NCBI GenBank assembly: GCA_030154025.1
Contig: JASKKT010000010.1
Location: forward strand, 1 to 56,084
Origin: Methanolobus sp.
GTDB taxonomy: Archaea > Halobacteriota > Methanosarcinia > Methanosarcinales > Methanosarcinaceae
DNA length: 56,084 nucleotides
Reading direction: 5' to 3'
The position numbers and the translations under genes were made by a program. Below, one piece after another: positions 45,740 through 46,495 of this stretch. The notes under the pieces were generated by a model. It had not been told where the DNA came from, did no database searches, and worked only from the letters and a program-made list of their open reading frames with translations. Numbering within the stretch: position 1 is the first letter of the stretch; the number at the start of each line of letters is the position of its first letter.

Positions 45740-45823
45740 ATGAATACATACCTGGATACAAACACTTTGCCAAAAGATGTATATCAGGAGTTCTATTATA
45801 GGTATCTCAGGCAAGAGGTGTAA
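45740..45823 (+). CDS. 27-codon leader ORF in frame with radB
   Basis: ATG at 45740 opens a 27-residue frame ('MNTYLDTNTLPKDV', then Tyr/Arg-rich) ending in TAA at 45821-45823. It is in the same frame as radB and stops 3 nt before the proposed radB start. Its last two codons (GAG GTG) are the radB ribosome binding site. A TATA-like element about 30-40 nt upstream would make this the first frame on the mRNA. It may be a regulatory leader peptide or the remnant of a longer N-terminus. Confidence 0.45.
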   Translation: MNTYLDTNTLPKDVYQEFYYRYLRQEV

Positions 45824-45826
45824 AAG

Positions 45827-46495
45827 ATAACCAGACATCTATCAACCGGAAGCCAGTCCATCGATGAGCTCCTGGAAGGAGGCTTTGAGACCGGCATTGT
45901 CACCCAGGTATTCGGAGAGGCCGGCTGTGGCAAGACAAATCTGTGCATGCAGCTTGCTGTTGAATGCGTGAAGAGCGGCAAGAAAGTAATATATATAGAT
46001 ACCGAAGCCATCTCACCCCAGAGGTTCAGGCAGATCGCCGGAGAGAATGCAAAGGAGATAGCCCGGGAGATAATAATCTTTGAACCCACCAGTTTTGAGG
46101 AGCAGTATGCTGCAGTAAAGGAAATAGAGAAGCTAATCTCGGACAGGATAGGACTTATCATTGTGGACTCTGCCACGGCATTCTACCGTTTCGAGCTTGA
46201 CCAGGATGAATCGAGCATCAGGTCAAGGAGGGAACTCTCGAACCAGATAGGCTTCCTGCACGGCATAGCCCGCAAGTATAAACTTGCCGTCGTGATAACC
46301 AACCAGGTCTATAGCGATGTTGCCACAGGTAACCTGAAGCCCATAGGAGGCAGCGGGATAGAGCACATATCCAAGACCATCATCCAGCTGGAAAAGACGG
46401 GCGAGGGAACAAGGCGGGCCAAGCTGTGGAAGCACCGCTCGCTCCCAGAAGGCAGGTCACGTGATTTCAGGATAACGAATGAAGGCCTCAGGTGA
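45827..46495 (+). CDS. radB: DNA repair and recombination protein RadB, with an unusual start codon
   Basis: A RecA/Rad51-family paralogue of about 222 residues, the usual RadB length. It begins close to 'LSTGSQSIDELLEGGFE', which in other RadB proteins lies at the very N-terminus, then Walker A 'GEAGCGKTN' and Walker B 'LIIVDSAT'. No ATG, GTG or TTG is in frame between the upstream TAA (45821-45823) and the Walker A region. The best start is ATA at 45827, 6 nt after GAGGTG; the next in-frame ATG (45947) is after the Walker A motif and would destroy function. RadB modulates RadA-mediated strand exchange. Confidence 0.8.
   Translation: MTRHLSTGSQSIDELLEGGFETGIVTQVFGEAGCGKTNLCMQLAVECVKSGKKVIYIDTEAISPQRFRQIAGENAKEIAREIIIFEPTSFEEQYAAVKEIEKLISDRIGLIIVDSATAFYRFELDQDESSIRSRRELSNQIGFLHGIARKYKLAVVITNQVYSDVATGNLKPIGGSGIEHISKTIIQLEKTGEGTRRAKLWKHRSLPEGRSRDFRITNEGLR

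Follow-up and report, generated by a model that had tools for sequence, protein, structure and literature searches.

Where the radB frame of Methanolobus can begin

Where does translation of radB begin in a genome whose radB frame has no canonical start codon ahead of its nucleotide-binding motif? We addressed this question in a 56,084-nt stretch of Methanolobus sp. DNA (contig JASKKT010000010.1), which we call the window. A profile search identified the encoded protein as RadB (TIGR02237, 257.7 bits against a cut-off of 172.4, residues 13–222), by family match a RecA-family ATPase. The Walker A motif GEAGCGKT is present in the 223-residue radB frame and a RadA-type N-terminal domain is absent, the alignment with the solved RadB 2cvf beginning at residue 6 of the frame. 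In protein family, length and N terminus the window protein is like the archaeal RadB family (TIGR02237; Haloferax and Thermococcus RadB). We know of no role of RadB in translation; the Haloferax protein is described as a recombination mediator (PMC5480776).

An earlier note on this DNA, made from the letters alone, had proposed that radB starts at an ATA codon, with no ATG, GTG or TTG between an upstream in-frame TAA and Walker A and with GAGGTG 6 nt before the ATA; the sequence is as it described. None of the three codons stands in frame between the TAA and the Walker A lysine in the window, and the first in-frame Met of radB lies 41 codons on, behind Walker A. A single AAG codon (45824–45826) separates the TAA from the ATA. 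Because L6 of the radB frame aligns with residue 2 of 2cvf, the ATA stands at the expected RadB N terminus, as the note had also held. The Shine–Dalgarno (SD) call is supported by the 16S 3′-end motif GGATCACCTCC, which was found in rRNA regions of two genomes (G024 and G002). Two small upstream frames reported in the same note were confirmed in position: one of 27 codons, in frame with radB, whose last two codons are the GAGGTG, and a second that runs from an ATG to a TAA at 45828–45830 and shares bases with the ATA as ATAA (Table 1).

Table 1. Features around the radB start in the window
Feature	Position	Strand	Remark
radB coding sequence from ATA	45827..46495	+	222 residues plus stop at 46493–46495; TIGR02237 257.7 bits
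ATA, inferred start codon	45827..45829	+	ATN at the homologous site in 149/149 scored loci
Shine–Dalgarno GAGGTG	45815..45820	+	6 nt before ATA
In-frame TAA ending the upstream frame, two codons before ATA	45821..45823	+	
BRE/TATA-like promoter element CCAAAAGATGTATATC, conserved	45770..45785	+	Alignment of genus genomes
27-codon ATG frame MNTYLDTNTLPKDVYQEFYYRYLRQEV	45740..45823	+	Not conserved; upstream of the predicted transcription start; probably not translated
Second tiny frame; ATG falls in the conserved promoter element	45777..45830	+	Probably not translated

The start codon of radB in related genomes

The search located RadB in 174 of the 185 order genomes and in 220 of the 237 class genomes. 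Start regions were compared at one locus per genome in 177 of them (157 of the 174 order genomes, 19 of family f7 and one of f6), the start column being set per family by the register of the SD motif, with five genomes moved one codon by eye. Scored were 149 loci from f1 (the window's family, 14 genera), f3, genus g17 of f4 and f5 (another family of the same order, which includes Candidatus Methanoperedens nitroreducens Mnv1); f2 (six loci), genus g14 of f4 (two loci) and the single f6 locus were left out. An AUA, AUU or AUC codon (AUH) occupied the start site in 136 of the 149 loci and was present in f1, in f5 and in one genus each of f3 and f4. The site codon was ATA in 98 and ATC in six of the 104 f1 loci; ATA in 18, ATT in six, ATC in one and ATG in four of the 29 f5 loci; ATG in nine and ATC in five of the 14 f3 loci; and ATT in both loci of f4 genus g17. 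Not one of the f1 loci had changed to AUG, though it is one transition away. In f7, ATG lies at the site or within one codon of it in 19 of 19 loci; among the genomes examined, the AUH start is seen in the window's order alone.

Exchange between AUH and AUG can be followed in the same column. The near-identical f5 pair G050 and G106 has ATA in one and ATG in the other exactly at the start, and a tree of RadB from which the start codon was left out (short alignment, f7 set to ATG) requires at least 11 codon changes, and at least six changes between AUG and AUH. At the site, family f5 keeps ATA or ATT despite lacking the f1 promoter and having a different sequence context upstream. Judged from these alignments, the start position is an AUN codon with a free third base. 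ATA is also found in Methanolobus halotolerans SY-01, M. bombayensis DSM 7082, M. profundi Mob M and Methanococcoides vulcani SLH 33. A sequencing error hiding an ATG, which the earlier note had considered, is ruled out by ATA in many independent genomes, these named isolates included.

The ATA behaves as a start rather than as an isoleucine codon. Across 31 full-length f1 radB genes the site was ATA in every one, whereas all 17 other conserved Ile columns mixed ATA, ATC and ATT or had the residue changed. The TAA before the ATA becomes TGA, TAG, TAC, TAT or TGC, or gives way to a frame shift, in relatives in which the ATA is unchanged. In-frame stops lie no more than two codons upstream in 26 of the 136 non-AUG loci and no more than ten in 76. 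From the upstream stop to nine codons beyond the site, 55 of these loci have no ATG, GTG or TTG; in 34 more the GTG inside the SD motif is the sole canonical codon nearby, which brings the total to 89 if that codon is discounted, and the other 47 have another canonical codon nearby or run without a stop through the stretch read; in genus g7 (Methanosarcina), for instance, a TTG or ATG stands about 15 codons upstream in some loci. The same method applied to two neighbouring genes (94 loci searched, duplicates of some genomes included) returned ATG in every scorable locus, 47 of 47 for one gene and 78 of 78 for the other. As a separate observation, radB follows CAGGTGAT... in L180, L177 and L179 (genomes G034, G043 and G047) and has an ATA or ATT start; the SD region itself holds an in-frame ATT or ATC there, and the choice of start is less certain.

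Since the site is conserved at the nucleotide level, the upstream frame is closed and ATG exchanges with the codon in the same column, we infer that ATA is the start codon. The original proposal of an ATA start is thus borne out, with 98 of 104 f1 loci agreeing; in the alignment of close relatives, which the earlier note had named as a check, ATA is fixed at the site. Taken together, the comparisons put at roughly 0.87 the probability that radB is translated from an AUA set by the strong SD GAGGUG, that this arrangement is old in the order and that it keeps RadB low or sensitive to initiation stringency. As far as the genomes compared reach, the AUA/AUU/AUC start of radB is kept across two families and parts of others in the order, and is an old arrangement.

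Selection for low output or inertia

An SD-like motif lies at a suitable distance in 132 of 136 AUH loci as against 3 of 13 AUG loci, which is to be read as a pattern and not as a test, the motif list having been drawn up after the sequences were viewed and the genomes being related. The pattern fits a strong SD that would compensate for a weak start codon. In the mechanism that we propose, the transcript would have a 5′ leader of about 20 nt, on which the GAGGUG, 6 nt before the AUA, would set this codon in place. Initiator Met-tRNA would pair with AUA through a third-position mismatch, and the strong SD would hold the mRNA in place; initiation would nonetheless be inefficient and output low. 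Selection would then keep RadB, a mediator of the RadA recombinase, low or sensitive to the stringency of initiation, a step suggested by the absence of AUG from f1. A factor that could impose such stringency is aIF1, which destabilises initiation complexes on non-AUG mRNA (PMC6237735) and is likely to be the brake on AUA. Of the 38 tRNA matches in the window genome, the loci of the 30 strongest were scanned with ARAGORN; no tRNA with the TAT anticodon, which would read AUA, was found among them, and at one of these loci (L365) ARAGORN predicted no gene.

The main rival to selection for low output accepts the AUA start as real and supposes that phylogenetic inertia could also have preserved it, AUA with a strong SD being equal in output to AUG with a weak SD and regulating nothing. 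AUG starts in f3 and f5 are mostly without an SD (10 of 13), AUH starts have one (132 of 136), as if the two compensated for each other, and AUH and AUG have interchanged several times in f5. Against this stand the 104 f1 loci in 14 genera, none with AUG, and the conserved Ile columns of radB, which change their third base freely. We regard inertia as a serious but less probable account. Selection for a low or adjustable RadB output is, by analogy, plausible.

Could another codon or another signal explain the ATA?

The GTG within GAGGTG, three codons upstream, might itself be the start, with the ATA an internal Ile codon. In some genomes this GTG leads into radB in an open frame, among them the 34 loci in which it is the sole canonical codon nearby. 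It has no SD of its own, and in the window and many relatives it is followed directly by TAA, TAG or TGA or lies out of frame: in the 92 f1 loci with the exact motif, GAGGTG stands 5, 6 or 7 nt from the start (16, 44 and 32 loci), the intervening bases and the frame varying. As a sense codon, moreover, the ATA would not keep its third base fixed. A GTG start is already contradicted in the window, and in general we consider it improbable.

Strict conservation within one family might also have causes other than initiation. The ATA could be kept as a regulatory site in DNA or RNA, RadB being made by stop read-through, by frameshifting or from a downstream codon. Between f1 and f5, however, the surroundings, the promoter and the reading frame differ and only the SD and ATN are constant; ATG occurs in the same column; and the leader RNA folds no better than shuffled sequence (z −0.48, −0.01 and −1.08), with nothing unusual in RNA structure at the radB start in the three sequences folded. 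A regulatory site of this kind is quite implausible.

Upstream frames and the radB promoter

Of the 26 genus genomes compared, two have the 27-codon frame: the window genome (G000) and G006. They differ at 5 of its 27 residues and at about 1% of RadB residues; three other genomes of the genus have shorter ATG frames of 13–16 codons, and the 27-codon frame has no Pfam match. A BRE/TATA-like element, TTGCCAAAAGATGTATAT in most genomes of the genus, is conserved about 45 nt before the ATA. The TATA element (GATGTATAT, 45776–45784) comes about 40 nt after the ATG of the longer frame (45740) and contains the ATG of the second frame. Because TATA-type elements of Methanolobus psychrophilus are reported 19–22 nt from the transcription start (PMC5378194), the radB transcript is predicted to begin near 45803–45806. 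Both small-frame ATGs, being upstream of or within the promoter element, should therefore be absent from it.

The earlier note had suggested that the rare start keeps RadB at a low level or links it to translation of the leader, and had likened the ATAA overlap to a coupling device. The first suggestion survives, in that a weak start fits low-level synthesis. The link to the leader does not, given the presence of that frame in two of 26 genomes and the position of the promoter; nor does the overlap, whose frame has its ATG inside the promoter element. No upstream frame both conserved and, by the predicted transcript start, co-transcribed was found, as a leader peptide or coupling would entail. 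Although both frames do exist in the window, coupling of radB to either of them is, with the transcript start placed by prediction, very unlikely indeed. In a side observation, an imperfect inverted repeat of the type ATTATAGCANATAAT lies between TATA and SD in many relatives and, in degenerate form, in the window (45786–45814), near the predicted transcript start; it is a possible operator.

Other genes with AUH starts

A hexamer gene finder was used to screen 456 kb for AUH starts, made up of the window and 20 stretches from one complete genome of the genus; it gave 294 ORFs and recovered radB. Behind SD matches of at least 6 nt in these 456 kb, ATG (29 against 9.1 expected) and TTG (8 against 2.3) were enriched; ATA, ATT and ATC showed no excess (7, 5 and 9 against 8.8, 4.8 and 8.5), and AUH starts are therefore rare and exceptional. 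Two genes flagged by the screen were traced in 24 genomes, and both support AUH. In the first, a TrkA_N–DHH phosphoesterase by Pfam matches, the start column held ATT 11, ATA five, ATC one, TTG three and ATG two times (22 scored of 23 genomes with a match, rows read by eye), with GGAGG before most starts. In the second, a CheR-like gene, it held ATA in three and ATG in six of nine close loci. When starts were compared pairwise between G024 and G002, the 87 ORF pairs, which included some shadow or rRNA frames, yielded these two genes again, together with one unclear case. In the genomes sampled, a small set of genes in the order is thus seen to use AUH starts, and among these genes the start of radB varies least.

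Several further observations came from the screen. The phosphoesterase gene (L266:6795–8261, − strand; loci L282–L303) has AUH behind GGAGGT in most Methanosarcinaceae examined. The CheR-like gene lies at L271:7171–7767 (+ strand), with other loci in L306, L307 and L318; the copy of the window genome (L313, contig C39:27178–27615) has one in-frame TAG, which may reflect decay or pyrrolysine read-through. Other flagged ORFs, named by eye, are a PAS-type kinase in L280, a surface protein in L269 and an AsnC-like gene in L264. The PAS-kinase-like frame (L280:1148–3079, − strand) reads GGGGTGATTTCTC-ATT with no canonical start for 39 codons and is an AUH candidate.

A probable conserved AUH start in archaea

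Natural AUA, AUU and AUC starts are textbook rarities, known mainly from bacterial infC and pcnB. These are given as the only two E. coli genes with an AUU start, and IF3, the infC product, discriminates against its own start (PMC9410913). In both the AUH start has long been kept in evolution, as in radB, where it is found in orthologues of several genera and where the window offers no canonical start before Walker A. Unlike infC, radB is archaeal, encodes a recombination mediator rather than an initiation factor and mostly has AUA, not AUU; IF3-type autoregulation is not implied. What is known of start selection controlled by aIF1 comes from Pyrococcus and Sulfolobus systems studied in vitro, and the portion of that account consulted describes no natural conserved AUH gene (PMC6237735). 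A review of archaeal initiation gives AUG, GUG and UUG as start codons, and neither AUA nor AUU turned up when its text was searched (PMC7531240). In the literature searched, which covered few of the subscription papers, we found no report of an AUA, AUU or AUC start in archaeal radB. By the genomic comparison, the unusual start of radB is real, old and widespread, and it is of a kind known before, the conserved AUH start.

In these genomes, gene callers that accept ATG, GTG and TTG alone will make RadB and some other proteins too short or too long, or miss them. A gene with an AUH start across many archaeal genera lends itself to genetic tests of how archaea select start codons, and the order includes the genetically tractable Methanosarcina. 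We tentatively suggest, as a possibility more doubtful than not, that radB, the TrkA_N–DHH gene and some CheR-like genes of Methanosarcinales are held on AUH starts by selection and form a translational regulon whose output tracks the stringency of start selection (aIF1, initiator tRNA supply); if so, the fidelity of initiation would be linked to recombination and signalling. If AUA limits RadB, the dose of a recombination mediator would be set by translation.
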